From: a virus
IMG/VR virus record: IMGVR_UViG_3300017719_000028
Span: 1-43,647 of that record
Reading direction: 5' to 3' (one strand)
DNA: 43,647 nt
A program made the translations under genes and the position numbers. The notes under the pieces were generated by a model, which searched no databases, was not told the DNA's origin, and saw only the letters and a program-made list of their open reading frames with translations. Below are positions 1-42,284 of the stretch, piece after piece; the first letter of the stretch is position 1, and every line of letters begins with the position of its first letter.

Positions 1-543
1 GTATAACTTAAACCAATCAATATCGTTCCGATGTTCTGTGCTATCTTTGTACGGACCATTTTGTTTTATTTCGCTGTAGTATCTACTACTAAATTTAGGA
101 TGACAGTAACCGCATTTAAAGTTACATTCATTACTAAAATTAACTTCAATGTATTCAGGATTTATATCATAATCCCAAGGATTATTTTTTATTTCTTCAA
201 TACGTTCTGGTGTATAAATGCTCGTTGTCTTTATATGTCTATCACTAACATAGTCTTTACCCATACACTCAATATTCCAACAGTACTGACATCCTGCAGG
301 CTTTTGACCGTTGAGCATAGCAAGTCGTTCTTGTTTCTTTTGCGGAGTATTGTGTAGTTGACTGGGATTTTGTTCAAGACCTTCTAACGGAATTTTGTGA
401 GGAGCAGGATGATAACAACTATGTGTTTCTCCAGTTTGTAAATAGATCGTTACATGATGCCATTTAGCCAAACAAAAAGTAGGCGAAGTGTCCTTTTCAA
501 CACCCGGCATTATTTCTTTGATTCTAATTAGTTCGTTGTTCAT
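1..543 (-). CDS. Twitch-type radical SAM protein (3' end beyond window)
   Basis: The reading frame starts with ATG at 543 and stays open to base 1, giving 181 residues; the C-terminus lies outside the window. A canonical radical SAM cluster, CNFKCGYC (CX3CX2C), has cysteines at residues about 140, 144 and 147, which would bind a [4Fe-4S] cluster and S-adenosylmethionine. A second cysteine group (C85, C88, C93) and an SCYHP segment lie N-terminal to it. Such proteins are annotated in marine T4-like phages as twitch domain-containing radical SAM proteins; the substrate is unknown. The ATG overlaps the TGA of the upstream glycosyltransferase-like gene (ATGA), so the two are probably translationally coupled and belong to the cassette transcribed from the promoter near 4021-4049. 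The radical SAM identity is firm; the chemistry it performs cannot be inferred. Confidence 0.85.
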   Translation of the reverse strand, partial: MNNELIRIKEIMPGVEKDTSPTFCLAKWHHVTIYLQTGETHSCYHPAPHKIPLEGLEQNPSQLHNTPQKKQERLAMLNGQKPAGCQYCWNIECMGKDYVSDRHIKTTSIYTPERIEEIKNNPWDYDINPEYIEVNFSNECNFKCGYCHPKFSSRYYSEIKQNGPYKDSTEHRNDIDWFKLY

Positions 544-1430
544 CTCTTTTTAATAATCCTTGGAGTATTATGATAAACACTTTTAAAAAACTTACTACCT
601 AGTGCATCTACATCAGCAATTTCTAAGTTTAGTTCTGATCGTATATTGTTACCATATCGAAACAGCTCTGAAGCAACATCTAAATCAGCAACTTTTTCAT
701 CTTTCCAATAATCTGTTAGATACTTAAAGTCACGTACATTTGTGTAATCCCAATCTGTACACATAGTCATATAGCAACCCATTCTTGCACCTAACATACT
801 CCAATTGCCGTTTTCTACATCAGCGCCTATACTACACCAAATACGCAATCGATCTAAATTTTGCCACCAAATGTTTTTTACATCAACATGTTTTGCACCT
901 TCATTAAGGCTCATTTTAACACCTTCACGAAACCCTGCTCTCCATGCTTGAAAAGGCGAAGCATTTGTGTAACTTATACTATAACTGTCATTGAACTGAT
1001 AATACCTTTCATCAAAACAAAATTCTACTAGTCCTTTAGTATCGTCAGCATTACTATTTTCATGAGTTTTCATATTGTTTACGAACTTACGTGTCCACAA
1101 TTTTAATCCACCGTTGCCGTACTGTAGTCCATTTACATGGACATTGCCGCACCAGCTAAACACATGATCTGGCGTTAGTCCTAGTTGTTCAATATCAATT
1201 TCTTGTTGTAAGAATTCTGTATCGATAATATTGTCACCGTCGATAGTAACAAAATACTCTGTTTCACTTACATCAGCACAGGCTTTGTGTGCGGCATCTG
1301 ATCCGTCTACTCCGTGTACACGTTTGGCCCACGGTAGTTTACTACACAAGTCAGCATAGTTTTTTTCAGCATTAGGTTCATCGTAGGACAAAAAAACTAT
1401 GTCCTGATCGATAATTTTAATTTTATCCAT
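540..1430 (-). CDS. Glycosyltransferase family 2-like protein
   Basis: This 296-residue protein has an N-terminal nucleotide-sugar-transferase pattern: a beta strand ending in FLSYDEPN, and a hydrophobic strand ending in TIDGDN with a DxD-type motif at D64/D66, which in GT-A enzymes binds metal and the sugar nucleotide. It is rich in Trp and aromatic residues further on (WRAGFREG, NIWWQNLDRLRIW). I chose the ATG at 1430 over an upstream ATG at 1496 because GAGG lies about 6 bases upstream of it, and because the longer form would run 74 bases into the preceding gene. The chosen start overlaps that gene by 8 bases. It is the third transferase-like gene in the cassette and is not close in sequence to the other two. 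Donor and acceptor are unknown. Confidence 0.6.
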   Translation of the reverse strand: MDKIKIIDQDIVFLSYDEPNAEKNYADLCSKLPWAKRVHGVDGSDAAHKACADVSETEYFVTIDGDNIIDTEFLQQEIDIEQLGLTPDHVFSWCGNVHVNGLQYGNGGLKLWTRKFVNNMKTHENSNADDTKGLVEFCFDERYYQFNDSYSISYTNASPFQAWRAGFREGVKMSLNEGAKHVDVKNIWWQNLDRLRIWCSIGADVENGNWSMLGARMGCYMTMCTDWDYTNVRDFKYLTDYWKDEKVADLDVASELFRYGNNIRSELNLEIADVDALGSKFFKSVYHNTPRIIKKR

Positions 1431-1998
1431 TAACAACCTCACATGAATACTTTTGGAACTTTCTATTAGTATATACACTATATTTGTCAATTTCAAACTG
1501 ACTCTGGCTGTTTATTGTAATAGAATTTTCTAATAATTGTTGTACTGTTGTTGTAAAGTATTCATGGAGGATATTTGGATTGTTTTTTTGTGTAACACTA
1601 AATTGTAGTGCTTGATTAATACGTTCTTTTTTGCTTTCGAGATCTTTTTTTGCACTATCGGATAGTGCAACTTTCCACATATTAGATTGTGTTAGAAAAC
1701 TTACAGTTATCTGAGCATTGTCTTGTTGTTTAATTTTATAAACATTGTCATTTACATCAATTTCAAGTTTTTTATATTTGTCTACTATAATGTATGACGA
1801 AGTCCTAATATCATATACTACTTTATGTCTAGTAACATTCTTTGTTCCGTCTAAGTACGGTCGTGCATCTTGAGTATCAATTATAAAATTAGTTTCTATG
1901 TCTTGTTCTACATTTGACACTGAAAGAATATTTCCTGTATCTTTATCAAAGTACACCCTATATACTATTTCGAATTTTGGTGTTTCTAGAATTATCAT
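1423..1998 (-). CDS. Hypothetical protein in glycosyltransferase/radical SAM cassette
   Basis: I do not recognise this 191-residue protein. It has no signal peptide or membrane segment. The N-terminal half looks beta-rich (FEIVYRVYFDKDTGNILSV, then KVVYDIRTSSYIIV), and the C-terminal half is more polar and helical (DSAKKDLESKKERINQAL). Its ATG overlaps the TGA of the upstream transferase gene (ATGA at 1995-1998), and its own 3' end overlaps the next transferase gene by 8 bases, so it is a fixed part of the operon. It could be a partner or substrate-binding protein for the neighbouring enzymes, or an unrelated structural accessory protein. That role is inference from position only. Confidence 0.75.
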   Translation of the reverse strand: MIILETPKFEIVYRVYFDKDTGNILSVSNVEQDIETNFIIDTQDARPYLDGTKNVTRHKVVYDIRTSSYIIVDKYKKLEIDVNDNVYKIKQQDNAQITVSFLTQSNMWKVALSDSAKKDLESKKERINQALQFSVTQKNNPNILHEYFTTTVQQLLENSITINSQSQFEIDKYSVYTNRKFQKYSCEVVNG

Positions 1999-2831
1999 AT
2001 ATCTAATCTCGTTTCTAATATTTCTATGATATCGTCTGTTAAAAAATTATCTTCAGTATAATGAAATATGCCAGACTGTTTATGATTACCTATATACAAC
2101 TCTGCATCAGTTGTAAAATATGTGCCGACTTTTGTTTGCCAACTTTCCCTTATTTCGTCCCAACCTTGTATGTTTGCTTTCATATGTGTAAAACTAGGCA
2201 CTGATACATTTTCATTAGTAATCTTTGATTTACAATCTAACAAATCAATTGTCATTGCAGCTGTTAAGTCCATACTTGCAAAATTTTGTATTGGTTTATC
2301 TCTACCTAGTTTGTAAAATTCTTTCCAATTGTTAGTAATTTTATCTAACCATGTATAAAATTCTAATGCAAAATCACTTTTCTTAAAATAGTGCAATCCC
2401 ATGTATGTGTTTGGTAAGTTATACTTGTTAAAATTCTTTCGATAAAAAGTATCTTTAATCTTATTACCTCTGTAATCAAATACTGTTGATGTAATATACA
2501 TATCATAACTTTGTAAAAAATTATACCATGTTGTAATATCCTCTAGTACTAACATATCCGTATCAAGAACTATTGCATCATCATACGGTGAAATAAAATA
2601 TGTCTTCCATCGATTGTGTATCTTCCAATCATATTTGTTTGCAAGGTCACCCCAAGGTATTTCTATTACATTATCAAATAATGTTTTGTAACGTTCTGGA
2701 ATTATATCGTCAGTAAGTATACTAATATTACTATTAGGCGTTGTTGCGTGAATACTCATTGCCAATGCACATGCTTGTTTTACATAATCAACATCTTGTG
2801 TATTTTGAGCTACTAAGATAAAATTAGGCAC
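1995..2831 (-). CDS. Glycosyltransferase family 8-like protein (paralog 1)
   Basis: This 278-residue protein has features of a GT-A fold retaining transferase. An N-terminal strand and helix (FILVAQNTQDVDYVKQACALA) precede an ISILTDD strand, then SPYDDAIVLDTDML with the DxD motif at D90/D92. Later segments (MGLHYFKKSDFALEFY, FTHMKANIQGW) resemble the acceptor-side half of GT8 enzymes. It is clearly paralogous to the gene immediately upstream (2824-3654): both share DYVKQA, an SI-TD strand, RYK--FDN and SPYD--LD-D in the same order. The start overlaps the upstream stop by 8 bases. The protein is cytoplasmic with no signal. The target could be host surface glycan, phage protein or another acceptor; the sequence does not say. 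Confidence 0.65.
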   Translation of the reverse strand: MPNFILVAQNTQDVDYVKQACALAMSIHATTPNSNISILTDDIIPERYKTLFDNVIEIPWGDLANKYDWKIHNRWKTYFISPYDDAIVLDTDMLVLEDITTWYNFLQSYDMYITSTVFDYRGNKIKDTFYRKNFNKYNLPNTYMGLHYFKKSDFALEFYTWLDKITNNWKEFYKLGRDKPIQNFASMDLTAAMTIDLLDCKSKITNENVSVPSFTHMKANIQGWDEIRESWQTKVGTYFTTDAELYIGNHKQSGIFHYTEDNFLTDDIIEILETRLDI

Positions 2832-3654
2832 TTAAATTATCCTCTAATGTATACTTGTTCATTACATGCACACTGTTACCTTGAAATTTACAAGGGCTAT
2901 ATTTGTCTAGTGAGCCTTTACATTGTATCAGAAAGATAAACTTGTCTCCTTTTATAGAATGTAATATATCTCTATCTGCTGTAAAAAATAATTTGCCGGG
3001 CATTTTTTTTGCAAAATCCCCTTGCTTGAATCCGTTCATTATATGGATTGCAATACTAAATGCAAAGTCGTTTCGATATGTTGTTGATTGAATGTTGTAT
3101 ACTTTTCTATAGTGTGTATAGTATTCCTGTATATGTTTTATTAAATCAAAAAAGCGTTTGTTTATCTCTGTCTTTCTAAAAAATACACACGTTGCCCAAT
3201 AAAAATCTATACTTGTTTCACTTATAACTTTGAATTCATTAGTTTCCCTATTGCCGGCAATATCTACAGCATCCTTATATATTAAAAAATCATATGTACT
3301 ATTAAAACAATTTTTGAATACATCATCTGCTATTACATAGTCACTGTCTAGCATAAGTGTTTCGTCATATGGAGATAAGTCGTAAGCAAAAGGTCGCTTG
3401 TCGTTTTTAAATTCTAGTACAGTACTTTGTTCTGCACCGTTATAGTATTTCTTTTTGGATGATGCTGTAATAATATCACTAATAATAATGTTATCAAACC
3501 AACCTTTGTATCTATCGCCTATGCTTTTTTCATCAGTTACAATACTAACTGGTAAGTTAAGATATTCTTTTGCTCGACCAGCAAGAAATGCTGCTTGTTT
3601 TACATAATCAATATCGGCATTATTATAAGCAAAAACAAGAATACCTTTAGTCAT
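2824..3654 (-). CDS. Glycosyltransferase family 8-like protein (paralog 2)
   Basis: This 276-residue paralog of the 1995-2831 gene product has the same layout: ILVFAYNNADIDYVKQA, then SIVTDEK, RYKGWFDN, and SPYDETLMLDSD with the DxD at D103/D105. I selected the ATG at 3654 (MTKGILVF) rather than the longer frame to 3729, because GAAGGG lies about 9 bases upstream and only this start aligns with the paralog's N-terminus. It overlaps the preceding gene by 8 bases. The two copies diverge after the DxD region, so acceptor preference probably differs. The last 70 residues (FFTADRDILHSIKG, FIFLIQCKGS) are unlike the partner. Confidence 0.65.
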   Translation of the reverse strand: MTKGILVFAYNNADIDYVKQAAFLAGRAKEYLNLPVSIVTDEKSIGDRYKGWFDNIIISDIITASSKKKYYNGAEQSTVLEFKNDKRPFAYDLSPYDETLMLDSDYVIADDVFKNCFNSTYDFLIYKDAVDIAGNRETNEFKVISETSIDFYWATCVFFRKTEINKRFFDLIKHIQEYYTHYRKVYNIQSTTYRNDFAFSIAIHIMNGFKQGDFAKKMPGKLFFTADRDILHSIKGDKFIFLIQCKGSLDKYSPCKFQGNSVHVMNKYTLEDNLSA

Positions 3655-3994
3655 TAAATATCCCTTCAACCGAACGTTGTTTTTTAATTTTATTGTACTC
3701 GTTAAAAAACTTGTTTGATGCTGTTGCATACGTGTTTACTAAGTTGTTAGTAAATGTAGACAAGTCACTAACCATTGACGGTAACCCGTTGTCGTCGATT
3801 AACACAATTTGATCTTGTTCTAATGATATTAAACTTTGACAAAAACTAATTAGTTCTTTACTAGATGTAAATTGACATCCGTTTTCGTAATGAATCAGGT
3901 CAGCATCATATTGCTGTTGTAGTAATTTCTTTTGTTGATTTATAGTATCAAGTAGTTTACTTGCTTCAAGTGCTTTTGCTAATTTGTCGTCCAT
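3647..3994 (-). CDS. Hypothetical protein, coiled-coil-like, first gene of the accessory cassette
   Basis: This 115-residue protein is predicted to be largely alpha-helical. An N-terminal Lys/Leu/Gln-rich stretch (residues about 5-32, LLDTINQQKKLLQQQYDADL) has coiled-coil character, followed by a short beta segment (IVLIDDNGLP). I do not recognise the family. The ATG at 3994 has GGAG about 7 bases upstream and sits roughly 20 bases downstream of the predicted start site of the consensus sigma70 promoter at 4021-4049, so it is the promoter-proximal gene of the operon leading into the glycosyltransferase-like genes. It could be a small adaptor or chaperone for the enzymes or for fibers; this is unproven. 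Confidence 0.75.
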   Translation of the reverse strand: MDDKLAKALEASKLLDTINQQKKLLQQQYDADLIHYENGCQFTSSKELISFCQSLISLEQDQIVLIDDNGLPSMVSDLSTFTNNLVNTYATASNKFFNEYNKIKKQRSVEGIFND

Positions 3995-4020
3995 CCATCA
4001 TCTCCATAGGTATAGTATTA

Positions 4021-4049
4021 ATTATACACTACTTAGAGACAAATGTCAA
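4021..4049 (-). promoter_or_regulatory. Consensus sigma70 promoter for the glycosyltransferase/radical SAM cassette
   Basis: On the minus strand, TTGACA (4049-4044) and TATAAT (4026-4021) are separated by exactly 17 bases, a full match to the bacterial sigma70 consensus. The predicted start site is near 4014, about 20 bases before the ATG at 3994, leaving room for the GGAG site. The -35 hexamer overlaps the TGA stop codon of the upstream gene ending at 4046. No repressor site is obvious. Confidence 0.85.
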
Positions 4050-4534
4050 GAAAAAGACCAAGTCCAAACAGTAGTTTTTTCTGTTTCTTGTATAGTTGGA
4101 GTGTAAGAGTCTGCAAGTGGATATTCTGTACATGAACGTCTAATCCAATTGTCATCTACTAATTCTTTATAAGTGACCATACGCTTACTGGTATATCCTC
4201 TTTCAATAAGGCCATTATTTAAACAAGTAAAATATTCTGGTTGATACAAGTAATCTCTTGATCCATTATATCTTATACTTAAAATTGCTGAAATCTCAAA
4301 TAAATCATCATGTTTTGTACCAGTTATAATTGATACAGGTGTGTCGTCGATAGTAATTAAAAAATTAGTTACAAGCTGAGCATTTAAATTTTGTAGTGCT
4401 AAATTTAAAGGGTGTATTCGTGTTTCACCATGCAATTCTTGTAGTTTTGCATATTGATTATCCATTTCAGTATGCAAGTTATCTACAAATTCTTGTGGCA
4501 ATTCGTAAACTTCATTGATAAAATATGTTGACAT
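4046..4534 (-). CDS. Hypothetical protein downstream of the adhesin gene
   Basis: This 162-residue protein has no family I can name with confidence. I start it at the ATG at 4534, which overlaps the adhesin stop codon as TAATG and has AAGGA about 10 bases upstream. A longer frame to 4564 has no ribosome site. It begins with a helical stretch (VYELPQEFVDNLHTEMDNQYAKLQEL), then alternating strands (NFLITIDDTPVSIITG, FEISAILSIRYNG), then LNNGLIERGYTSKRMVTYKEL. The strand/helix order is faintly reminiscent of GNAT acetyltransferases, but no acetyl-CoA loop is evident. Its position directly after an adhesin also fits a tail-assembly chaperone. Both ideas are speculative. Confidence 0.7.
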   Translation of the reverse strand: MSTYFINEVYELPQEFVDNLHTEMDNQYAKLQELHGETRIHPLNLALQNLNAQLVTNFLITIDDTPVSIITGTKHDDLFEISAILSIRYNGSRDYLYQPEYFTCLNNGLIERGYTSKRMVTYKELVDDNWIRRSCTEYPLADSYTPTIQETEKTTVWTWSFS

Positions 4535-7500
4535 TATTCTATAGTCCTTACTCGTAAGTTCCATGTATTACCAACAGCCCACGGAGAGAGCTGACTTTGC
4601 CCGTTAACCATACCTTCAACATGGAGTTGTGCAATGCCGTCACGTGGTTCTAATTTAAATGTAGTATTTGTTCCATCAAAAGTTCTTAATGTTTGTGCTG
4701 TTTTTATCCACGTATTTTCATACTCAGTGTTTTGCCAAGCATCTACACTGTGCAATAATTCAGCAGGCATATTGCCTGAGAATGTAACCATCAATGTGAC
4801 AACGTTGCCAGCGCCGCCGACGAGAATTGAACCCGACGATATACTAGCTCTAACTAAAGTATGAGATCCAGTAGTTGTTGAAAAGTTCTGTGTTATTGAT
4901 CCTACTGGAAGGCTTGTAATGACGTTGTTGCCGACCCCGGTGGTAGTAATGCCAAATCCAAAAAATGGTGCTGCTATTAAGCCTATTTGTCCTTGAGCTA
5001 CGTATTCTGTAAACTGTTTTGCTGTTCCTGAACGATATCTTTTTACTACTACTAATCCTGGTTGACCTTGTCCGCCCATTGCAGGAGATGTATATCTTGA
5101 AACATTGCCGCCGCCGCCGGCGCCAGGTCCTATTCCATTAGTGCTTATATTAGGATAAGATTGACTATTAAACTGGGAAGCAAATCCGCCTTGGAATTCT
5201 ATTTTTCCTATTAGATCCTGTAGTACTGTCGGAATAGATTGTTTTTGGCCTGCTTTTACACTATCAGTTGTAGTATTATCTGTCACCGCGCCGTTTGAAG
5301 AAAGTACTACATTGTCTGGTCTATTTGCAATTACAGAACCAATAAATGGCACGCCGCCTGTACTAGCACGTAATGTATTAAAGCCTGCTGTTGGACCTAA
5401 TGTAGCTGTACCTGAATAATTAATACTACCGCCAGAACCAACGCCACCTGTCGCACTACTACCTGTTGGGTTTGCTTGGTTGCCGCCTGTAGCATATTGC
5501 GCTCCTCGTTGTATTTTTATACCATAGTATTGCGCTGTTATTGGTTCCTGCCCACTACCAATATTGAAGACGCTCTGGCTACTGCCGGCTTGATAGGTAA
5601 CACCATTAAATGTATGAGTTGCGCCATTGAATGGAGTACCTGCGTTTTGGCCTGAAGCATCTTTAATAACTTGTCCATTCCACACCCAAATTGCTCTTCC
5701 AATTTGCCAATAGACAAAAAATTGCTCTTCAGCGGTATGACTGTATCTTTCTGGCCCATATCCAGAAACTCCAAATGACGATTCGTCGCCATTTCTACCT
5801 CTGTTAAAGTCATTTGCTGTAGATGTTATTAATGATGAATCGCCGCCTTTACCAACTACTATAAGTGCTGTACTTGGAATATCGCCATCTGAATAAGTTT
5901 TAAAAGATGCGCCTCCGCCTCCGCCGCCTGCAGCTTCACCGTCGTTTGAAGTATCTGGTGAAGCAGCTCGGCCTGATGCGCCGCCTGCTATAACTATTAC
6001 ATCTATTTTATTATCATCTGCTGCTTTTGACCATGTATACTGTGTGGTGCCACCAGCCCATCTTCTATTTTCTGTAACATTTTGTAACAAAGGTGTAGAA
6101 GTGCCAGTGCTAGTAACTTGTGTCTTTGTTATATTTCTACCTTCAGGAGCAAATACAAATTCACCACCGTTACCGGGTGTATTTACGTCTCGTACTGGAT
6201 AGTATTCCATTGCATAAAAGTTATAAGATGTCGGTGGTACAGTTGTATCAACAATAGATGTTGATGTATTAGCAAGTACAGTTCCTGCACTTGATCCTTG
6301 TCTAAGCGATACTGATATAGTTTCATTATCTCCTACAACAGCATCATTGGCTGCTGTAAGTGTAAACGTTCCGTTACCTCCTGAAACTGTTAATGGTCCT
6401 GCTGACGAAGTCATTACTCCTGTTGGTACAACACTATAATAATAACTACCATCAGGTGCATCTGTTATTGAAACATTATAGGTACCATTGCTTCCTTCAC
6501 TTATACTACTAGGACCTGATATACTATATGATGCAACCGCTGGTGGCGGTGCTGGTTCTACACTTGTATCGTTAATTCCAATTGACGATGATAAGCCAAA
6601 GGCTGGTACTGATAATGTCAAAGTTTCAGCACCATCTGTGAATGCATCATTAGCAAGTGTAATTGTAGCACTAGCTGTTCCATTTTGCATATTAAACTGT
6701 CCGCCCATGCCTTGACTATTAGCAAAGTCGCCTACACTAATTCCTAGTCCACCTAGAGTATAATCTATAAGTGTGCCGTTAGCAACAGGATTTACACTTA
6801 ATGTAAATGTAACATCTTCACCTTCATCAATTGGTCCATTTGGAGTTCTTGAAAGGTTAGCTGACGTTTGTGTTGCTGCTCCGTCATCGAGTGAAGTAAT
6901 AGTAGTAAACGATGGTGACGGTATACTTAATACAGTATCATGTCGAACACTAATAGTACTTGTAATATCATTTGTAACATATTCATCTACATCTGTTGGT
7001 CCGCTACTAAAATCGTTGTCTTGAAATTCTATTCTAAATCTAAGTACACTAGGTGTTGATGCATTACCTGCAGCTTCTTCCCATGCTGTAATTTGATATT
7101 TTATATCAGCGTATAATCCACTTCCGTTTTTTGTAAAAAGAGTAGCTTGGTTTGAAGAACTTGTTAGCGACCAGCTGGCATAATAGTTGCCAAAACTAGC
7201 AGAAGTGCCTGGACTTGATCCGTCACTTGTTACAGCATTTTTGCCAAAAGTAATTGTTCCCATATTTTCTAATATAGTATTCCAATTAGCATTTTTGCTA
7301 TTAGCTGTTACAGCACCAATTAAATCAGCAGCAAATTTTATAGAGCCGCCGGTATTAAAAAAATATCTTCTTTCGTCTGCATTTACCCAAGTAACTTCTG
7401 CTTCATGTGTTATTTTAGTACCTGGCGAAGCATAGTCGCCACCACCCCACTGAGAAGTACGTGTATCAGATAATTTTTGTGTTACACTAAAATTAGTAGC

Positions 7501-8061
7501 ATCATGTACATTTATATCTGCAACAATTTCGTCTGCAGCCGCTTCAAAATCTAAATATCCTTCTGCTAGATCTTCCTCAGCATTTGCACTTGTAGGTGCA
7601 AGTTTTGCTTGTCCTGATCCTGTACCTGGGCCTGTTGCTGTAAATTTTATTCCTACTTCGTTAGCAGAAGCACCTATTAATGTAAAGTCTGATGTATTAT
7701 TTGGATCTACGTCTGTAGAAAGAATTTGATATTCAATGCCAATGGTAAGTGCTGTAATATCTATTGGTGTGTCGTTGCCTACGTCTGCTGCACTTGCGCC
7801 AACATTTTCGTCTGCATCTGGTGGTGCTATAGCACTTGTCCATGCTAGTGGATTTGCTTGGTGTGTTCTGGCTTTGACTAAATCTGCATAAAGATCAATC
7901 ATGTCTTGTGCGGCAATAGTATCGCCTGAAGACTTTGCAGAACTTGTTAACGCACGACCATAGCCGTTTTGAGCACCATCGCCGGTGCCTAAAACATCAT
8001 CTATTTTACTTTGTATTGTATTATAGTTTGCCGCGGTAACATTTGTTCCAACTACAGCCAT
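4534..8061 (-). CDS. Calx-beta and glycine-rich tail adhesin
   Basis: This 1175-residue protein is a probable distal tail adhesin. Residues 1-350 form a tail-attachment region paralogous to the neighbouring 338-aa protein (YGR, DLVKARTHQ, ERRYFFNTGG and MGTITFGKN motifs). Two Calx-beta-like immunoglobulin-type repeats follow at about 405-500 and 510-605 (each with a DEGEDVTF or SEGSNGTY opening and an acidic ND--GD--ET end). Residues about 685-1010 are interrupted glycine-rich tracts (AAGGGGGGAS, GGVGSGGS, GPGAGGGG) ending in VVVKRYRS, typical of phage glycine-rich receptor-binding domains. A separate C-terminal domain spans about 1015-1175. AAGG precedes the ATG by about 8 bases. A segment at about 96-154 is inserted relative to the paralog. 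Receptor binding is inferred from architecture. Confidence 0.75.
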   Translation of the reverse strand: MAVVGTNVTAANYNTIQSKIDDVLGTGDGAQNGYGRALTSSAKSSGDTIAAQDMIDLYADLVKARTHQANPLAWTSAIAPPDADENVGASAADVGNDTPIDITALTIGIEYQILSTDVDPNNTSDFTLIGASANEVGIKFTATGPGTGSGQAKLAPTSANAEEDLAEGYLDFEAAADEIVADINVHDATNFSVTQKLSDTRTSQWGGGDYASPGTKITHEAEVTWVNADERRYFFNTGGSIKFAADLIGAVTANSKNANWNTILENMGTITFGKNAVTSDGSSPGTSASFGNYYASWSLTSSSNQATLFTKNGSGLYADIKYQITAWEEAAGNASTPSVLRFRIEFQDNDFSSGPTDVDEYVTNDITSTISVRHDTVLSIPSPSFTTITSLDDGAATQTSANLSRTPNGPIDEGEDVTFTLSVNPVANGTLIDYTLGGLGISVGDFANSQGMGGQFNMQNGTASATITLANDAFTDGAETLTLSVPAFGLSSSIGINDTSVEPAPPPAVASYSISGPSSISEGSNGTYNVSITDAPDGSYYYSVVPTGVMTSSAGPLTVSGGNGTFTLTAANDAVVGDNETISVSLRQGSSAGTVLANTSTSIVDTTVPPTSYNFYAMEYYPVRDVNTPGNGGEFVFAPEGRNITKTQVTSTGTSTPLLQNVTENRRWAGGTTQYTWSKAADDNKIDVIVIAGGASGRAASPDTSNDGEAAGGGGGGASFKTYSDGDIPSTALIVVGKGGDSSLITSTANDFNRGRNGDESSFGVSGYGPERYSHTAEEQFFVYWQIGRAIWVWNGQVIKDASGQNAGTPFNGATHTFNGVTYQAGSSQSVFNIGSGQEPITAQYYGIKIQRGAQYATGGNQANPTGSSATGGVGSGGSINYSGTATLGPTAGFNTLRASTGGVPFIGSVIANRPDNVVLSSNGAVTDNTTTDSVKAGQKQSIPTVLQDLIGKIEFQGGFASQFNSQSYPNISTNGIGPGAGGGGNVSRYTSPAMGGQGQPGLVVVKRYRSGTAKQFTEYVAQGQIGLIAAPFFGFGITTTGVGNNVITSLPVGSITQNFSTTTGSHTLVRASISSGSILVGGAGNVVTLMVTFSGNMPAELLHSVDAWQNTEYENTWIKTAQTLRTFDGTNTTFKLEPRDGIAQLHVEGMVNGQSQLSPWAVGNTWNLRVRTIE

Positions 8062-8084
8062 TATGCTTTTCCTTTGTTATCTTA

Positions 8085-8092
8085 TATTTACA
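8085..8092 (-). promoter_or_regulatory. Weak late-promoter-like core ahead of adhesin gene
   Basis: The minus-strand octamer TGTAAATA lies about 24 bases before the adhesin ATG and differs at one position from the NATAAATA late core. It overlaps the stop codon of the preceding gene, as do the better cores elsewhere in this window. A one-mismatch match in AT-rich DNA is weak evidence. Confidence 0.3.
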
Positions 8093-9104
8093 GATTTGAA
8101 TTAACGGTTAACGCCGGTTGTGATATTCCTAAAACTCCTGTTGCTGTTAAAAAAGATACAGTACTTGTTGTTACACCAGTTACATCTTCGTCTTCAGGTC
8201 CAGATGAACTTGCGCCGCCTGCATCATCTCCGATATCATTATCAGAAAAACTAATTAAAAATCTTATACTATTTGGTGCTGTTTCCCAAGCTGATATGCT
8301 ATATTCGTTTTCAGCATATAGTCCTGCGCCACTTTTAGCAAATACTCCTACTGGATATGTTGCACTAGTTGCTGCCCATGCGTCATAATAATTACCTACA
8401 TTAGTACCAATTCCAGGGTTACTGCCATCTGCTACTGTTGTATTTTTACCAAAAGTAATTGTTCCCATAGTGCCCAACATAGTTTGCCATATTTCATCTT
8501 TTGTTCCAGGCGGTGTAGTTGTTACATCTCCTGGTACACTAGTTCCGCCTGTCAAATTAGCATTAAATTTTATTACTCCGCCGGTATTAAAAAAGTAGCG
8601 TCTTTCGTCTGCATTTGCCCATGTTACTGTAACTGTATGTGTTATTTCTGAATTCCAACTAGATTGACGTTCATTGCTATCTCCAATTGATGTTGAAAAT
8701 TGTCCCGCATCAAATGTATCTCTATTATTGCTAATATCAACAGCCGCTGATTCAAAATCAGCAAACCCTTCATTTAGGTCAGTAGTAGCATCAACCGATG
8801 TACCTCCTGCACCTACATCAGCTGCATAAACACCTACAATCTCTCCAGCACTTGGTGCACCAAGTCCGTCTGCTGATGACCATGTCGGCGGAGTTCCTGA
8901 TTGATGTGTTCTAGCTTTTACTAAGTCATTGAATAATAATTGCATATCTGCTGCATATATAATATCGTTATCAGCTTTTGATGTGCTTTCTAGTGTTCTG
9001 CCATAGCCGTTTTCAGCGCCATCGCCAACACCTAGCACGTTACTAACTGTACTTCTTATCGAATTGTATACGGATGAGTTAACTAAGTCTGTTACCGCTG
9101 GCAT
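8088..9104 (-). CDS. Tail/adhesin protein, short paralog of the 1175-aa adhesin
   Basis: This 338-residue virion protein is of a kind widespread in marine myoviruses. It aligns along almost its full length with the N-terminal 350 residues of the next gene: NGYGR near residue 33, DLVKARTHQ near 60, ADERRYFFNTGG near 165, MGTITFGKN near 205, then GNYYDAW. It lacks the Calx-beta and glycine-rich distal parts, so it is probably the shaft or attachment partner of the longer protein, or a homotypic baseplate decoration. GGAG lies 7 bases before the ATG. The gene follows the fiber gene by 10 bases and precedes its paralog by 26. Structural role is inferred from context; no enzymatic motif is present. 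Confidence 0.7.
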   Translation of the reverse strand: MPAVTDLVNSSVYNSIRSTVSNVLGVGDGAENGYGRTLESTSKADNDIIYAADMQLLFNDLVKARTHQSGTPPTWSSADGLGAPSAGEIVGVYAADVGAGGTSVDATTDLNEGFADFESAAVDISNNRDTFDAGQFSTSIGDSNERQSSWNSEITHTVTVTWANADERRYFFNTGGVIKFNANLTGGTSVPGDVTTTPPGTKDEIWQTMLGTMGTITFGKNTTVADGSNPGIGTNVGNYYDAWAATSATYPVGVFAKSGAGLYAENEYSISAWETAPNSIRFLISFSDNDIGDDAGGASSSGPEDEDVTGVTTSTVSFLTATGVLGISQPALTVNSNL

Positions 9105-9114
9105 AAAGGTTCTC

Positions 9115-10611
9115 CTAAAGTTTTAATATACACTCTACTAATTTTTCGTCTTCGTCCAAGTTGCTTTCAAGTGCTATTCCAACTAAAGGGTTTCCGTTAA
9201 AGTGAACGCTTGCTGTGCCTTCGGCATCTACAAATACTTTTTGTCCTTTTGATACTGGTCCAACTACTCTTACAGGAACACGCCCTTCAAGTGCTATAGC
9301 TTGACCATCTGCTTCTGCATTCATTAAGTATGCTGGCTTTTCTGATATAACTCCTACTGGATAGCTATCTAGTAAACATGGTGCAATTTCGTATTCGCCT
9401 GCTGGCGCAACGTACATTACTGTTCCTACTGGATGATCTTTTTCTACAGTGTATTTTTCTGCTAAGTCAGCAAACTGTGCTTGTGTTGCTACACCTTGGA
9501 ATATGTCTGCAACTAACTTTGTATTTGCTCCGTCTTGCTCTCTAATAGCAATTGTGCCGCCTGTGTTTGACGCTGTAGCATATGTATATGCTGTGCCTGA
9601 GTTTCCAATTCTTAATTGGTTTGCATCGTCTGCTATACCTTTAAAAGATGTAGCATGTACTTCGTCCCACGCATTTCCTGTTTCGCCTAGTTTTAGATCA
9701 GTAGTTGCACTGCCTGGCATAATTCCTTCTGATGTAATTTTAACAGAATTTGTTAATACTCCAGAACTATTATTAACATCAAACTCAATTGCGTTTGAAT
9801 TACCTGATGTATTTTTAATTAATCCTGTTGTTGCATCTGGACGCATTGTAAAGAACATATTACCATGTGTAACTAACCCTGCTGTTAGACTTAACTGACT
9901 AGTAAAAGATGCATTACTGTTTTGTACAAAATCTCCTGGTGTAAGTCCGCCGAATTTCTCAGCGTCTGTTGCTGTTCCATGGAATCTAAATGATGTACTT
10001 GTTACTCCGGATGCCGGTGTATCTCTTAGTGTAATACCCTGTTGAATATCACTAAATCCGTTTATCTCATTATCGGCGCCTGCGCCTAGTGTAAATGCTG
10101 TTGGGGATATAACAAATGTTACTGTATCGTTTACTGTTGCTGTAATAATACTTCTAGATATTCCTGACGGTGCTGAATTATCAAGTACTGTGCGACTAAC
10201 CATTTGTGTTTGGCCTTCGCCTGCGTCTTGTGGTCCAATTAGGACAAAATTTGAACCATTATACACATACAGTTGTTCGTTTGCGCTATCCCACCAAAAA
10301 TCTCCTTCTGCTAGACCAGCTGGTTGAGCAGCTGAAACTTCAGCACCCCCTACTGTTCTCCAGTTTTGATTTCCGTCTCTAAACTTCATTCTGTCTGATC
10401 CCGAATCAAACCATAATTGACCGCTTAGTGGTTTAGGTGGCTGATTAGCACCTGCAAAGTTTTCTAGCAAGAATAAGAAATTTTCGTTATGTATTTCTCC
10501 ATATCCTGCATAATTTTTTCCTACAAATTTAATATCTGTAGTTTCGTCGAGTGTACCATCTTCCACTGTGGTTAATGGGCTCTTGTTAAATCTGTCTATT
10601 TGATACGCCAT
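9115..10611 (-). CDS. Tail fiber protein with DLAEKY-type tip domain
   Basis: This 498-residue protein is the shortest of three tandem fiber paralogs. The N-terminal module (residues about 1-70: VEDGTLDETTDI, GKNYAGYGE, NENFLFLLENFA, PLSGQLWFD) is followed by a second W-D/YNGSNF module to about 130 that ends in VLIGP; both are shared with the other two. The centre is fiber-like, rich in Ser, Thr and Asn. The C-terminal 110 residues start at DLAEKYTVEKDHPVGTV and continue through VGVISEKPAYLMN and GRVPVRVVGPVSKGQ, a domain often found at the ends of marine phage tail proteins. A TATAAATA late core lies 38 bases upstream of the ATG. The likely role is a baseplate-anchored fiber; the receptor is unknown. 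Confidence 0.75.
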   Translation of the reverse strand: MAYQIDRFNKSPLTTVEDGTLDETTDIKFVGKNYAGYGEIHNENFLFLLENFAGANQPPKPLSGQLWFDSGSDRMKFRDGNQNWRTVGGAEVSAAQPAGLAEGDFWWDSANEQLYVYNGSNFVLIGPQDAGEGQTQMVSRTVLDNSAPSGISRSIITATVNDTVTFVISPTAFTLGAGADNEINGFSDIQQGITLRDTPASGVTSTSFRFHGTATDAEKFGGLTPGDFVQNSNASFTSQLSLTAGLVTHGNMFFTMRPDATTGLIKNTSGNSNAIEFDVNNSSGVLTNSVKITSEGIMPGSATTDLKLGETGNAWDEVHATSFKGIADDANQLRIGNSGTAYTYATASNTGGTIAIREQDGANTKLVADIFQGVATQAQFADLAEKYTVEKDHPVGTVMYVAPAGEYEIAPCLLDSYPVGVISEKPAYLMNAEADGQAIALEGRVPVRVVGPVSKGQKVFVDAEGTASVHFNGNPLVGIALESNLDEDEKLVECILKL

Positions 10612-10648: not shown

Positions 10649-10656
10649 TATTTATA
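10649..10656 (-). promoter_or_regulatory. T4-type late promoter core (TATAAATA)
   Basis: The minus-strand octamer TATAAATA is a perfect match to the T4 late promoter -10 element recognised by gp55-containing RNA polymerase. It lies in the 45-base gap between two fiber genes, one base after the upstream stop codon and 38 bases before the next ATG. No -35 hexamer accompanies it, as expected for late promoters. Confidence 0.7.
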
Positions 10657-15217: not shown

Positions 15218-15225
15218 TATTTATT
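15218..15225 (-). promoter_or_regulatory. Late promoter core (AATAAATA) ahead of fiber block
   Basis: The minus-strand octamer AATAAATA fits the NATAAATA form reported for cyanophage late promoters. It overlaps the TAA stop of the giant gene and lies 19 bases before the ATG at 15199, leaving a short leader that still holds the AGGA ribosome site. It would provide separate late expression of the fiber genes from the end of the 15-kb giant gene. Confidence 0.55.
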
Positions 15226-18200
15226 CGGGTAATTCGCTTTTCGCTTCGCGCAAGAAACTACCAATATCGTTTTGAGCATCTTTTAATGGAGTGCCCGGGT
15301 CTGTCCACAATTTGCCTACTTTTCTAATAACAACTAACTTCTGATCTGCTTTCATTGGGTTAGTTAACGTTAATATATTGCCACTTACAGTGAACTCTGC
15401 TGGTGTATTTACGTCACCCTCGGGTGAGTCAATGGCTATAGCTGGATCAAACTTAGCTATAGCAGCTTTATTTAACCTCGTTCCTGCAGCAAATACTTCA
15501 AATTCATTTACACTATTTGGAGTAAAATCAAGTGTAAAATCAGTTTGTCCTTCAGTTACAGCGTCTACGGGTGACCAAACTATTGTTTCGTCGCGGTATG
15601 GAATATTTTTATCAGTACTTGCTCCGTATACTGGTGTATTTACTGGATATGTATCTTTAACACCTGTGCCTAATGTGCCTCTTCTAAGTTGTCTTAGATC
15701 ATTTCCTGTTTTAGCAAAATATTCTATTCGCTCACCATCAATCCAAATTATTCCAGGCTTATTAGAACGTTTATCCGGTGTTGGTAATCTATCAGCATTT
15801 TGTACTACCACAATTCTAAGATCATTGTATCTTAACGGAGAAGCCAATTTAATACCGTCATTATTGTCAACACGTTTATAGTGTGTTCTATTAAGAATAT
15901 CTTTAAACTGTTGCCATGCAATTGTTGGTGTGCTGATTGGTGCTGTAAAATGTATAATATCAATTATATCGTTTTCAGCTGGTGTAGTTACTAACTGTAT
16001 AACTTTCATGTTAGATTCTAACTTATAATCAACACTTGGTGATAGTAATTTACCGTTTTTAAATATCCAAACATTTTCAACACCTGATGTTGCTGTGTTG
16101 AGCCTAACTCTGCCGCCAGTTAAAGAATGATATGCTGAATAATTATCTGAGCCTGGTGTTAATGTACTTCTATTAATAACATCATAACTTATGCGGTTAA
16201 TATCTAATATATCATGATTACTAAATGAGTATACATTTATTACTTTGTCCTCACTTGGAGCATTATTAAATATAACTTGATTACCAACTACTCTATAGTC
16301 AGAATTTCTAAAGTAAATGCTTAGTGTATCGCCTTGAGATAGTAAGTTATTTTCTAAAATAATACTACTTTGACCAATGTTAACGCTATAACTATCTTGT
16401 TGATTTAAAAGGTTACCATTTAAGTAAACTTCTGTATCTGCAGCACTTAATGTTGATTCCTGTACTTGGAATGTTTCTAATTCATACTCTCTAATTGCAG
16501 GATCTGTAATTTTAAAGATTTTAGAATATCCTGGTTTCTTAACTATTCCGTCAACTTCAACAATTGTAAAGAACTCTGCTGGAGTATCATAAATTGCACT
16601 AGTTGATAAGTTGTATATAACACTTGACCCGTCTGCAATTATACTATCTTTTTGTACTTTACTATAGTTAATTTGTGTATTGTTAGAATAAATTTCATAA
16701 TCTAATCTAGTGCCAACGTCTGGTGCTGTTGGACTAAACACAAACTCTACAAATCCATTAGTATCATTTTTTCTAGCAATAAGTTCAGGACCGTCTGGTA
16801 CAATACCATCTTTTCTTAGATAGATTTGATATTGGTCTTGCCAAGGAATCTTTGTTTCGTACACAACTTGATCTGCAACAGTAAATATTGACCCTATATC
16901 AATTATGTTTTGACCATTTTGACCAATTGCGAGTATAGTTAACATTTGATCAGTTGCTGGAGCATTTTCAAATGTTAATGTTAGCACTTGATAATCCAAA
17001 GTATACAAACTAGAGTCAACTATTGTATTACCTAATTTAACAATAACAGCATCGTTGCTGTTAGGTAACAACCCTAATGGATATGTAGTAGTTGTGCCGT
17101 CTGTTAAATAATTTTGGTTGTATATTTGTCCTTGGCCTTCACCAGTTCTTTCGTATACTGTGATATTCACAGAATCCATAACTTGTCCACTAACTAACTC
17201 TTCAGGTCCGCCTGATGTTAAAGGTGTAACAAACAAGTCACCGTCTAAAATAATATCATCTGCGTTTACACCTGATGCATTACCATAGTCTAATTGGCCA
17301 CCTGTTAATAGTGTGTCATAAGAATCAGGATCTGGTTTGAAACTACCATCTGAAGTAATTTTTCTAACAGTAACAATATCGCCGTCATTGACTTCTATAT
17401 CATTTTCTGCTAGATTAATAGTCTGTGTTACACCGTCACCTGTAAGTGTTTGCATCATTGCAAGTTTATTTGCAGGGTTATTACCATAATTAGGATCATC
17501 AATTCTAATTGCTTTAGTTTGTCCAGAACGTTTTAGGTATACATTATATTGTATTCCGTCTTCTAATGGATTATCTAATTCTATAGCAACAGTAGTGCCA
17601 TCTGCAAAGAATATTTCGTCTTGGAATTCGTTGTCATAACTATCCCAGGTATCTGATCCGTATTCGTCAGTCATCCAACCCGATGTACCTTCAAAGCCAA
17701 AGCTCTTAACTTCAACACCACCATAGTCAATACCAGTCATTAATTGACTTAATTCTTTACCTAGCATTCCTGTAGTAGGATTATACAGATGATTTATTCT
17801 ATCTTGTGCATTTAGTATTGACGATTCTTTTTCGTACTCTATACTAATTGCTGCTCCTAGTGCAGGTGTAGTTGTAAACTTTATTTGACCTTTATGTCTT
17901 TTGTATGTATAATTATTATCTTCTATATTACTAAACGTATATTCGCTACGTAATAATATTTGACCGTTAATTGTAACTTTTACTTTGTTGCGCTTTAAGT
18001 TCATTGGCCATTTAAGTGCAAATGTATCATTAATTGCTGTACCAGTAAATGTTTCTGTTTCTGGTAATTCAATTATAACATATTCGCCTGACACTCTATC
18101 AAACTTCATTTCTACATGCATACTTCTAACAACAGTTTCGCCAATTTGTGCTGATGCAATTGCTGTAGTAGATCCGTCTGCTTGTGATCCTGATATAGTA

Positions 18201-21200
18201 ATTGTTGGTGCGCTTGTATAACCTGATCCTGTATTAGTAACTACAATGTTAACAACTTTGCCAGCACCGATATATGCCCTTGCTGTAGCGCCTGATCCGC
18301 CACCGCCAGCAATAGTTACTGTTGGTGGATATGTATATTTGCTTCCGCCATCATAGATGTTTATACCAATAACTTTAAATCCAAAGTTTTCTTTCCAAGA
18401 TTTATATGGATAATCATCAAAAAATTCATCTGCACCAATTAGTGTATCGTCTTTAATTTTAACTGACTTAGTTGTAATTTTACCTTTTGTAATATCAAAG
18501 TACGGAGGTAAATCAAAGTCACTAGTTTGTGTGTTGGTATTATCAACATTTTCATATGAACTTAGATATTCACGTACATTTGTTTTGTAAGGCTTAACTT
18601 CGTTTATATAATCATTATAACTATCTAAATTATCATTTTGATAATTAATTTTTTGTGTTAATGAGCCTACATTATGTTTTGCTTTTACAAAACTTGTCTT
18701 ATACACCCAATCAACATTTTGTTGTTCTGATAATACATAGCGAATACTTGCAAAGAATAACTCCTGCCATTTGACAGCAAGATTATCAACAAATATATCA
18801 TTCTTTAATGCTGTTAATATTTGTCTAGCTTCTGTTACTGGTTCAGTATCAAAGAATCTGTTGTCATAGCCTAGTAAGTCATAGCCAATAGTGTTTTCAA
18901 TAACATTGTAAATTTTAGAACTAATTTCAATTGTTCCATTTTCTCTACCAATAGTATCATAATCTATTGTATAATCAGTTGAATTTGTTTCTGCTGTACG
19001 TATTAGTAATAACCAACCACCGTTGCCAATATTATCAATTTTTACAATTTGACCTATTTTTGCATCAGTTGCACTTAGCTGATAACTTTCATCAACTCTG
19101 TAATCAATCTTAGTAAACTGATTATATCCAGTAGCATACCAATCAGCATAATCCCAATACTCAGTAGTATCATAACTTTGTGATATTATTCTATCCCATA
19201 TAGATGATGTAGTATTATATTCGTATATTGCCCATTTGTTATTTACTGTTGAATCATTTTCTATTAATACTGTTAGAGGCCTAACTTCTATTCTTAAGTT
19301 TTCGTCATACCCGGCGCCGCCGTTAATAATGTTTACTTTATTAACTTGTCCTAGATTGTTAATTTCTATATTAAAGTCTAAACCAGAACCGTTACCAAAT
19401 AGTTCAAAACTTGGCCCATGTCTAACTGTAGACGTTGTTGAATCATAAGTAGGATCAACATACCCTCTACCTGAATTTATTATTCGTATATCTGTAACTG
19501 TGCCGCCATGTACTGATGCTTCAAGTTGTGCTGTTTTTATTTTATTAGTACCAACAAAGTCAAGCTCTTCCAATGTATCAAGTTTATAATCATACTTTCT
19601 TTCAGTAACAAACGGTTGCACATCGACGCTATTAAGAGTTGTAAAACTAAAATCATCTACAATAATATTTTCTTTTAATGTTAGATTAGCTCTTTCAATA
19701 ACCTGTTTAAATGCTTCTTGTTTGTTTACAAACCAACTTTGTCTTGGACTGTTTAGTGTACCATATTTTTCTGCTGGACTTAGCTCAGGATTTGGAACTT
19801 GACGTCCTCTAGTATCATAACCTATTAAACTATCAATCCATTTTCTTTCTATATCTGCTTTAGGTACACTTGTTTCTAAACCTTCTGTAACAAGTTGATA
19901 TTCAAGGTGTGTATTTTGTTCTTGTGTATCTTGTGTATAGTAACTTACATGTAATGCAACTTCTTTATCGTTGAGTAAACTTTCGCTATTGTATAATACA
20001 AATCTATCATTACTTAATAATGCTACAAAACTATATCCTTGGCCCCTAGGGTTACCAATTAATCCTTCAACTTCAGACCCGCTAATTGATCTTGTTTCAT
20101 CTGCTGGTACTGTCTTTTTACTTTTTACCCAGAAATAGTATTTGTCACTAAATGTTTGCGATGCTGAATCATATGCAAGTTTTTGACTGTATGCAGCATC
20201 ACCGTATTTTGATAGACCGCTAATACCTTTTGCAAATCCTTCACTTGTGTCTGCAATCTTATCCCATTCACTTGGTATAATACTACTTTCTACCCATTCA
20301 TAAACATCAGCGGAGTACCCTGGTATTAGTGTATTCCATTTGTTTGCTTGGTTAGTGATATCTTCTTGATAAGGATTAAAGAATCTAGCTGTGCTTATAT
20401 CCCACCATAACTTACCTAAGTGCTGTTCTTCCCAATTATTTGTTTCACTAAAGTAATCAGGTAATGTTGTAACATTATAACGTGCAAAATCAATATTAGA
20501 TTTAAATGTTAATTCTTGTTCTGCTGGTCCTGCAATTTTACCTTGTACAGGATCAACATAATCTAAATATTTAATAAGTTTATTTGTTCTTGTATTGTAT
20601 AAAAATGCTGATTTAATTTTCTTAACATCAACTACTTCATTTGGTGTTCTTAGTATTGTCCAAGGTTTAACATTTTGAGTAACTTGATAATCAACAAAAC
20701 TACCTGGATTTGTATCTTCAGTATAGTAATCATTTGGATCGCCTGGAACACCAACATACACATGGTTATCGTTAATTAAAACTTGCTCTCCAAATCTACT
20801 TGCTGTAAGTACAGTTAGGTCACCATCATAATCTAATTCTTCACCAAGTACAAATGCATCTGCAACTTTTTGGTAAAGTCTAATACTTCCGCTGTCTATT
20901 TTCTTATCTGGGAATGCTGTAAATGTATCGTCAAATGTTGTTATACCAGTATCAAATAATGTGTCAGTTGCTACATCACCGTTCCCGCTTGTAACAGCAA
21001 TTATATCTTTTGAAACACTAACTTTTTCACCGAACTTTTCTGATGATGTTCCTGTTCCTGATAATGTTTGATGCATTTCAAATGTACCATTAGACTTAGC
21101 ATACACATAAACTTTACCTGTGTTGAATCCGTCAATATCACTTTCAGGATCTGCTATTGCTAATGTGTCGCCGTCTTCGCTAAGATCAATACTACTACCC

Positions 21201-41423: not shown

Positions 41424-42284
41424 TTGAGAAAACGTAATTACCTTAATAATAAGGACATATTGTCAGAAATCCATAAATCTAAGAACACTTTTAATAGTTA
41501 TGTGGAATCTACGTATCATCAGTACGATTTGATACTATTAGACGTAGCTAAAATTAATAGACTGACAATCGCAGAAGCAAAAAGAGCAAAAGCAAAAAGA
41601 CTCAGTTCAGCTGAATATGAGAGACGTAAAATGGCCGGCGAAAAGGTCAAACAAGCTGAGTGTGAGGTTGATTGGAAAAAGATAACAAAGGAAGAACTAA
41701 TCTTCCGTGTTATGACATTTGATCATATTCCAGAAGAACCAGGACGTAAGAAAAATCCTAAAACTATAGCAGACACTAAGACTAAACTTAACTTTCCACC
41801 ATTTCATCATTACAAATTTAATGACGAAGGTGATCTTATTTTAGTTGGTAAAAGTCATTGGGTCGGTGGCATGGACAACGGACACTTTGACAAGACACAC
41901 GGCAAAGCAACAAACACACTTGCTACTATGTGGTTGAAGTTAGTTGATAGATATGCTACACGTGGCAATGTACGTGGTTACACTTATAACGATGAAATAA
42001 AGGGACAAGCAATACTTCAGTTAGCACAGATTGGACTACAATTTGACGAGTCAAAATCAAACAATCCTTTTGCTTACTACACGGCGGCTGTAACTAACAG
42101 TTTTGTACGTGTTATTAACATTGAAAAACGTAATCAAAACATTAGAGACGACATTTTAGAGATGAACGATCTTAATCCTTCTTATACAAGACAAGCACAA
42201 GGCGAATGGGAAGCAAGTGTAAAACGTAACGAACAAGCACCGATTACAATCTTTAAAGATAAAAAACCGGTTGACAACGCTTAA
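41424..42284 (+). CDS. 55: Late-transcription sigma factor gp55
   Basis: This 286-residue homolog of the T4 late sigma factor, as found in marine T4-like phages, directs host RNA polymerase to late promoters. The sigma-region-2-like core is at about 170-245: NTLATMWLKLVDRYATRG, GYTYNDEIKGQAILQLAQIGLQFD, NPFAYYTAAVTNSFVRVINIEKRNQNIRDD. The N-terminal 150 residues, rich in Lys and Arg, have no counterpart in the 185-residue T4 protein. The start is TTG at 41424 with GGAG 7 bases upstream; no ATG is available nearby. It is expressed from the consensus sigma70 promoter just upstream, and its last codons contain the -35 element of the gp47 promoter. Confidence 0.88.
   Translation: MRKRNYLNNKDILSEIHKSKNTFNSYVESTYHQYDLILLDVAKINRLTIAEAKRAKAKRLSSAEYERRKMAGEKVKQAECEVDWKKITKEELIFRVMTFDHIPEEPGRKKNPKTIADTKTKLNFPPFHHYKFNDEGDLILVGKSHWVGGMDNGHFDKTHGKATNTLATMWLKLVDRYATRGNVRGYTYNDEIKGQAILQLAQIGLQFDESKSNNPFAYYTAAVTNSFVRVINIEKRNQNIRDDILEMNDLNPSYTRQAQGEWEASVKRNEQAPITIFKDKKPVDNA

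Follow-up and report, generated by a model that had tools for sequence, protein, structure and literature searches.

A candidate early glycan-modifying operon of uncultured T4-like phages with a promoter-embedded hairpin over its ribosome-binding site

Glycosyltransferases and radical S-adenosylmethionine (SAM) enzymes have been described together in aquatic T4-like myophages. The host recognition cluster of pelagimyophages is a hypervariable tail-fibre region with glycosyltransferases and radical SAM cassettes, for which modification of the host O-chain was proposed, and GT8 is the best-represented glycosyltransferase (GT) family in these phages (PMC7029224); T4-like viruses with many radical SAM genes were also already known (PMC5332604). 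Here, we analyze a minus-strand cassette of GT-like and radical SAM genes in the virus record IMGVR_UViG_3300017719_000028 from IMG/VR, together with the promoter and RNA hairpin predicted in its leader. The whole linear record of 43,647 bases, which is a partial contig, is called the window below. The locus resembles the pelagimyophage cluster, likewise from aquatic T4-like myophages, in that GT and radical SAM genes occur in the tail-fibre region; whereas the described cluster is variable in content, the present one is, going by that description, set apart by a block of five genes that is fixed and has an early promoter and a hairpin of its own. A preliminary description of the window had considered the cassette its best candidate for an undescribed system, which holds only in part, as GTs (GT8 foremost) and radical SAM cassettes are on record from the tail-fibre region of marine T4-like phages (PMC7029224).

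The closest precedents for the leader are T4 genes e, soc, 49 and I-TevI, in which the Shine-Dalgarno (SD) sequence or start codon is hidden in a hairpin of longer upstream transcripts; for gene e, a documented promoter in the region of the 5' arm yields translatable RNA (PMC3014915). The present leader appears to be the same device, with the SD paired only in the longer upstream transcript and a promoter inside the 5' arm (here by computation, from a predicted start), used in reverse: in T4 a late promoter lies inside and early RNA is silenced, whereas here a sigma70 promoter lies inside and late read-through would be silenced. In fold-back inhibition of the IS10/Tn10 transposase, read-through RNA hides the ribosome-binding site and the element's own promoter lies inside; that system regulates a transposon gene, whereas the hairpin examined here stands at a phage operon boundary.

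Operon, promoter and leader hairpin

Six overlapping minus-strand genes (CC, GTa, GTb, U191, GT2-like and RS) run from position 3994 to position 1, after the tail genes, with successive overlaps of 8, 8, 4, 8 and 4 nucleotides (nt). The elements of the cassette and its leader are as follows.

4044..4049, minus strand: -35 hexamer TTGACA, exact match
4021..4026, minus strand: -10 hexamer TATAAT, exact match; predicted transcription start at about 4014
3996..4045, minus strand: inverted repeat; 5' arm 4045-4023 (spacer and -10 region), 3' arm 4014-3996, which holds the SD of CC
4002..4005, minus strand: SD sequence GGAG of CC, paired in the read-through hairpin
3647..3994, minus strand: CC, 115 amino acids, function not known; first gene of the operon
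2824..3654, minus strand: GTa, 276 amino acids, GT8-like glycosyltransferase
1995..2831, minus strand: GTb, 278 amino acids, GTG start, paralog of GTa
1423..1998, minus strand: U191, 191 amino acids, fast-evolving and beta-rich
540..1430, minus strand: GT2-like, 296 amino acids, predicted GT-A glycosyltransferase
1..543, minus strand: RS, the N-terminal 181 amino acids of a twitch radical SAM enzyme; stop absent, cut by the contig end

Since the window is the entire linear contig, the operon is truncated in it. The preliminary description had recognized the coupled overlaps and the single operon, both of which we confirmed, although it listed six genes under a count of five; it had also overlooked both the hairpin embedded in the promoter and the continuation of the cassette beyond the window.

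The cassette promoter (TTGACA-N17-TATAAT) matches the sigma70 consensus at 12 of 12 positions and is the only perfect site in positions 1-9200. Among 113 independent relatives, defined by the lack of a shared exact 300-mer rather than by a tree, 73 have a sigma70 site of at least 10/12 within 90 nt upstream of CC; upstream of the other cassette genes such a promoter was seldom found. Where a sigma70 site stands before CC, it usually overlaps an inverted repeat able to pair with the SD. Comparison across relatives establishes the operon and, at the level of sequence, its promoter. The early promoter and the likely joint action of the genes suggested in the preliminary description gain support from the 12/12 site and from a gene order kept across widely divergent viruses.

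We then evaluated the folding of the leader. The window stretch 4055-3991 folds with a minimum free energy of −17.6 kcal/mol (z-score −3.7; none of 200 shuffles equally stable), and an RNA beginning at the predicted start gives −1.2 kcal/mol (z-score 0.6). As the predicted start is downstream of the 5' arm, the hairpin should be able to fold solely in read-through RNA from the tail genes. Similarly, the 60 nt before CC in 57 groups had a mean z-score of −2.6 versus shuffles, with 68% below −2; as controls, mean z-scores were near 0 for the starts of GTa, GTb, U191, GT2 and RS and −0.3 for other intergenic starts. The partners of the SD lay entirely upstream of the predicted start in 60 of the 61 promoter-bearing leaders whose SD is paired 5'-ward. 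When arms were swapped at random among 40 leaders less than 80% similar, none of 20,000 permutations paired as well as the true arms, in a test that is conservative owing to related leaders. Furthermore, the transcribed strand folded better than its complement (p = 5e-4), and where other genes of these genomes have a strong sigma70 promoter, no such hairpin covers the SD. These comparisons establish that the hairpin geometry covaries, as far as can be computed. Two genes and a late promoter elsewhere in the window, together with the gene preceding CC, are listed next.

41424-42284, plus strand: late sigma factor gene; perfect 12/12 sigma70 promoter without SD hairpin, internal control
42331-43353, plus strand: SbcD-like gene; perfect 12/12 sigma70 promoter without SD hairpin, internal control
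10649..10656, minus strand: TATAAATA, T4-type late promoter, 37 nt upstream of the tail-fibre gene 10611-9115
4046..4564, minus strand: U172, gene upstream of CC at the end of the tail cluster, outside the conserved cassette

A dyad over a promoter could instead be a DNA operator for a repressor or activator and no RNA switch, an alternative that bears on the leader alone and leaves the substrate of the enzymes untouched. The dyad does cover the -10 hexamer and the spacer, a usual place for operators; however, the arm sequences vary across lineages and keep their complementarity, G-U pairs number 61 against 4 A-C mismatches (a result that the folding program favours), the transcribed strand is the better folder, and the SD is contained in the 3' arm. 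We consider an operator improbable and prefer the RNA model because of arm covariation, the better folding of the transcribed strand and the inclusion of the SD, all of them computed.

A terminator before CC was also considered; the window's CC leader yielded no terminator-like site. In four relatives (L103, L067, L069 and L073), inspection by eye indicated an apparent terminator hairpin upstream of CC in place of the SD hairpin, which would be an alternative form of insulation. In a separate observation, lake relatives (L024, L021, L032, L040, L022, L031 and L075) carry a strong GC-rich hairpin within a near-perfect sigma70 promoter, where it takes up the spacer (as in TTGACAGGACCTGCGGGTCCTGTTATAAT); these spacer hairpins sit before a gene of about 395 amino acids on the opposite strand and are possibly a terminator merged with a promoter.

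Late promoter motifs were distributed differently from the sigma70 sites. The motif TATAAATA occurs once in the window versus 9 expected copies, and is threefold depleted across 1.75 Mb (101 versus 322 expected). Directly upstream of an open reading frame stand 58 of these 101 copies, none of them before CC, GTa, GTb, U191 or GT2. On the cassette strand, 42 copies were on the tail side, 1 within the cassette and 0 in CC leaders.

Conservation and distribution of the block

Relatives were fetched with separate baits (GTa, GT2, RS, CC and a GTa/GTb profile), and genes were called with a simple open reading frame picker, so that some CC starts are possibly miscalled (for example, with a promoter 6 nt away). 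Most of 65 independent groups share the order CC-GTa-GTb-U191-GT2. With GTa as the only bait, 50 independent groups had enough flank; CC was present in 49 of them, GTb in 50, U191 in 50, GT2 in 49 and RS in 42; these groups were drawn from the nearest of more than 590 GTa matches, and the most distant ones are under-sampled. Junctions between cassette genes overlap in at least 90% of cases. GTa, GT2 and U191 have median identities to the window of about 47%, 62% and 23%, respectively. Scattered, independently occurring genes, which the preliminary description had set against its own operon, were looked for in the relatives with a negative result: the block is not scattered. Judged by these comparisons, the first five genes are a stable core, and RS and the genes downstream vary. 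Full-length RS has 458 amino acids in relatives, and the copy in relative L009 is 96% identical to the window RS over the shared part. The variable cargo after RS comprises more radical SAM enzymes, a sugar-nucleotide epimerase, 2-oxoglutarate (2OG)-Fe(II) oxygenases, a methyltransferase-like protein and further GT2-like proteins; many relatives have multiple radical SAM paralogs downstream.

Most contigs found in the genome collection keep CC-GTa-GTb, mostly with GT2. Contigs that carry the block are binned to several bacterial groups and one archaeal bin (L154-L157, L159, L160, L163, L165-L167 and L169); in all likelihood these are phage sequences that were misbinned. Among the contigs assigned to Bdellovibrionia, which include two of 494 and 937 kb, there are GT2-family genes, some followed by RS, and the rest of the block is absent; on one, a GT2-family gene stands beside two PF00535 glycosyltransferases. 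Three Bdellovibrionia-assigned loci (L158, L162 and L164) carry two GT2-family genes and then a twitch radical SAM gene, without CC, GTa and GTb. These GT2 and radical SAM loci may represent a bacterial source or a parallel use of the same enzymes.

Searches of 50,697 cultured-phage records by tblastn gave no match to GTa, GTb, GT2 or truncated RS at an E value of 1e-3, and none to a divergent GT2 at 0.01; for full-length RS, the sole match in cultured phages was a radical SAM protein of two Vibrio phages, at 27% identity. The gene content of the window is of the T4-like myovirus type, with baseplate genes, the late sigma factor (41424-42284) and SbcCD-like genes. Through the late sigma factor and a baseplate protein, its closest cultured phages are the large T4-like Atu_ph07, Phosso, PA5oct, SCTP-2 and RaK2, at 33-46% identity. 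U172 is present in just 15 of the compared loci, all near relatives. An Rfam search of the window returned zero matches. The baseplate/tail region contains an exceptionally long open frame of 5,011 amino acids (15221-30256, minus strand).

Predicted folds and families of the encoded proteins

Residues expected of catalytic sites were found to be conserved by comparison of the encoded proteins among relatives. GTa has an invariant D103-x-D105 (100%), that is, a DXD motif, and the corresponding residues of GTb are D90 (91%) and D92 (98%). Neither protein has a Pfam match even at an E value of 1, and so none to GT8; the best PHROG for both is phrog_1903, of function not known. A joint GTa and GTb profile searched against solved structures matched glycogenins only, over the N-terminal part and weakly (E = 0.0026). 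The likeness to glycogenin/GT8 consists in this N-terminal match and the invariant DXD of GTa, whereas the weak E value and the lack of a Pfam GT8 match set the proteins apart. We regard the evidence for a GT-A fold in GTa and GTb as moderate, as judged from sequence profiles.

The GT2-like protein had no glycosyltransferase match through Pfam (PF00535 included), PHROGs or a profile search of solved structures, and differs from CAZy GT2 in lacking a sequence match to PF00535 or similar. Its D64-x-D66 is invariant among relatives. The AlphaFold2 model (predicted local distance difference test, pLDDT, 87.7; predicted template modelling score, pTM, 0.88) matched SunS and the PBCV-1 capsid GT, and also TarP and RmlT, in Foldseek (E = 8e-5, probability 0.99-1.0), with VIA-align Z values of 9-10, up to 10.0 over about 140 residues. 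The evidence for a GT-A fold is good in this predicted structure; however, since nucleotidyltransferases of the same fold score nearly as high as GT-A enzymes against the model, the fold alone is no proof of sugar transfer. The GT-A fold of the preliminary description is upheld for GT2 by a predicted structure, and more tentatively backed for GTa and GTb by the glycogenin (GT8) profile match and the conserved DXD.

Within CC, D67, P72 and R107 are nearly invariant (98-100%) among relatives; the protein had no Pfam or PHROG match and offers no conserved stretch usable for a family-wide search. The U191 model was less certain (pLDDT 81.6, pTM 0.58), with a best VIA-align Z of 5.5, and its C-terminal half may be an immunoglobulin (Ig)-like sandwich, a weak assignment. 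Foldseek rows for Hsp90 were discarded at a template modelling score of about 0.15, and no convincing fold was found; relatives of U191 in BFVD are uncultured phages or unnamed entries only. Neither CC nor U191 shows a visible leader-core pattern or a conserved run of Cys/Ser/Thr.

The window copy of RS being truncated, its 96%-identical full-length relative in L009 was used for classification and fits the twitch radical SAM subfamily NF033640, scoring 322 bits (cut-off 170). The cysteines C140, C144 and C147 (CX3CX2C), as well as C24, C43, C85 and C88, are invariant among relatives. Models of viperin (pVip) gave 23.7 bits versus a cut-off of 180 and, in PADLOC, a partial match of 25 bits; radical SAM models of peptide maturases scored far under their cut-offs.

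Proposed function and its alternatives

In the proposed mechanism, host sigma70 RNA polymerase would start inside the inverted repeat early in infection, and the operon's own transcript, lacking the 5' arm, would leave the SD of CC free. Late read-through from the tail genes would produce a longer RNA that folds and hides this SD; through the tight gene overlap (translational coupling), the hidden CC start would silence the rest of the operon. The operon would provide three GT-A-like glycosyltransferases and, as their partners, two small proteins, in most cases with a twitch radical SAM enzyme as well; most likely this set would build or alter a host-envelope glycan soon after infection, for example, to block superinfection. 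The sugar-nucleotide epimerase, 2OG oxygenases, methyltransferase-like gene and further GT and radical SAM genes of the cargo speak for this reading, as does the GT2 family on Bdellovibrionia-assigned contigs, in one case next to PF00535 glycosyltransferases. We infer where transcription starts, its early timing, the silencing of read-through RNA, the glycan chemistry and the host-envelope target, and hold with moderate confidence that this is an early operon, insulated from late read-through, that makes or alters a host-envelope glycan. We place about as much trust in the broader statement that, in a widespread uncultured T4-like group, an early operon encoding a previously undescribed five-protein glycan-modifying unit is guarded against late read-through by a covarying hairpin that is embedded in the promoter and conceals the ribosome-binding site.

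Several observations weigh against this interpretation. The start site, timing and translation are all predicted from sequence; the promoter is absent in about a third of lineages; and about one third of the 40 promoter-bearing leaders have little or no hairpin, some of them with strong promoters. Most distant loci from the genome collection are without the hairpin in the same folding test, so the hairpin is not universal. In addition, no flippase, polymerase or membrane-anchored GT was found, the cassette adjoins tail genes, a position equally fitting for virion modification, and enzymes made early could act on late virion proteins.

The last two points touch on a less probable alternative, glycosylation of virion proteins, whether of tail fibres or of U191 in the role of an Ig-like adhesin, which the tail-adjacent position would reflect. 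The block consistently follows tail-side genes, the nearest folds to the GT2-like protein include the protein-glycosylating SunS and the PBCV-1 capsid GT, and U191 may be Ig-like; yet the promoter is of the sigma70 type, late promoters are almost absent from the cassette, and the leader is apparently built to stop expression by late read-through, the opposite of what a virion-assembly factor needs. Early, insulated expression likewise argues against phage adhesins, one of the substrates suggested in the preliminary description, as the main substrate. T4 glucosyltransferases modify phage DNA, and early hypermodification of phage DNA by the GTs and the radical SAM enzyme would suit early expression and the 2OG-Fe(II) oxygenases of the cargo. 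We judge it unlikely: GTa and GTb resemble glycogenin-type GT8, and the 2OG proteins match the general families PF13640 and PF13759 with no TET/JBP model reported (on a contig that lacks most of the genome, so that base-modifying enzymes may lie elsewhere). Slightly less likely still is the making of a small peptide or metabolite in the manner of glycocins or radical SAM peptides, for which CC or U191 would be the substrate. A radical SAM enzyme stands next to a GT whose best Foldseek match is SunS, and multiple radical SAM paralogs follow in many relatives, but CC and U191 are full-size proteins without the features of such precursors, and the best match of RS is the twitch subfamily rather than any peptide maturase. 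On present sequence comparisons, we rank a host-envelope glycan first, virion glycosylation second, and DNA and peptide modification lower; the host target is favoured because of early timing and insulation.

Glycosyltransferases near phage tail genes are usually taken as tail-fibre or surface genes, which implies nothing about timing. The leader described here offers a testable clue, that the block acts early and must be off late, and would thereby connect it with the takeover of the host and not with the assembly of virions. A further suggestion is that phages may have a compact means of keeping adjoining early and late operons separate without a terminator.

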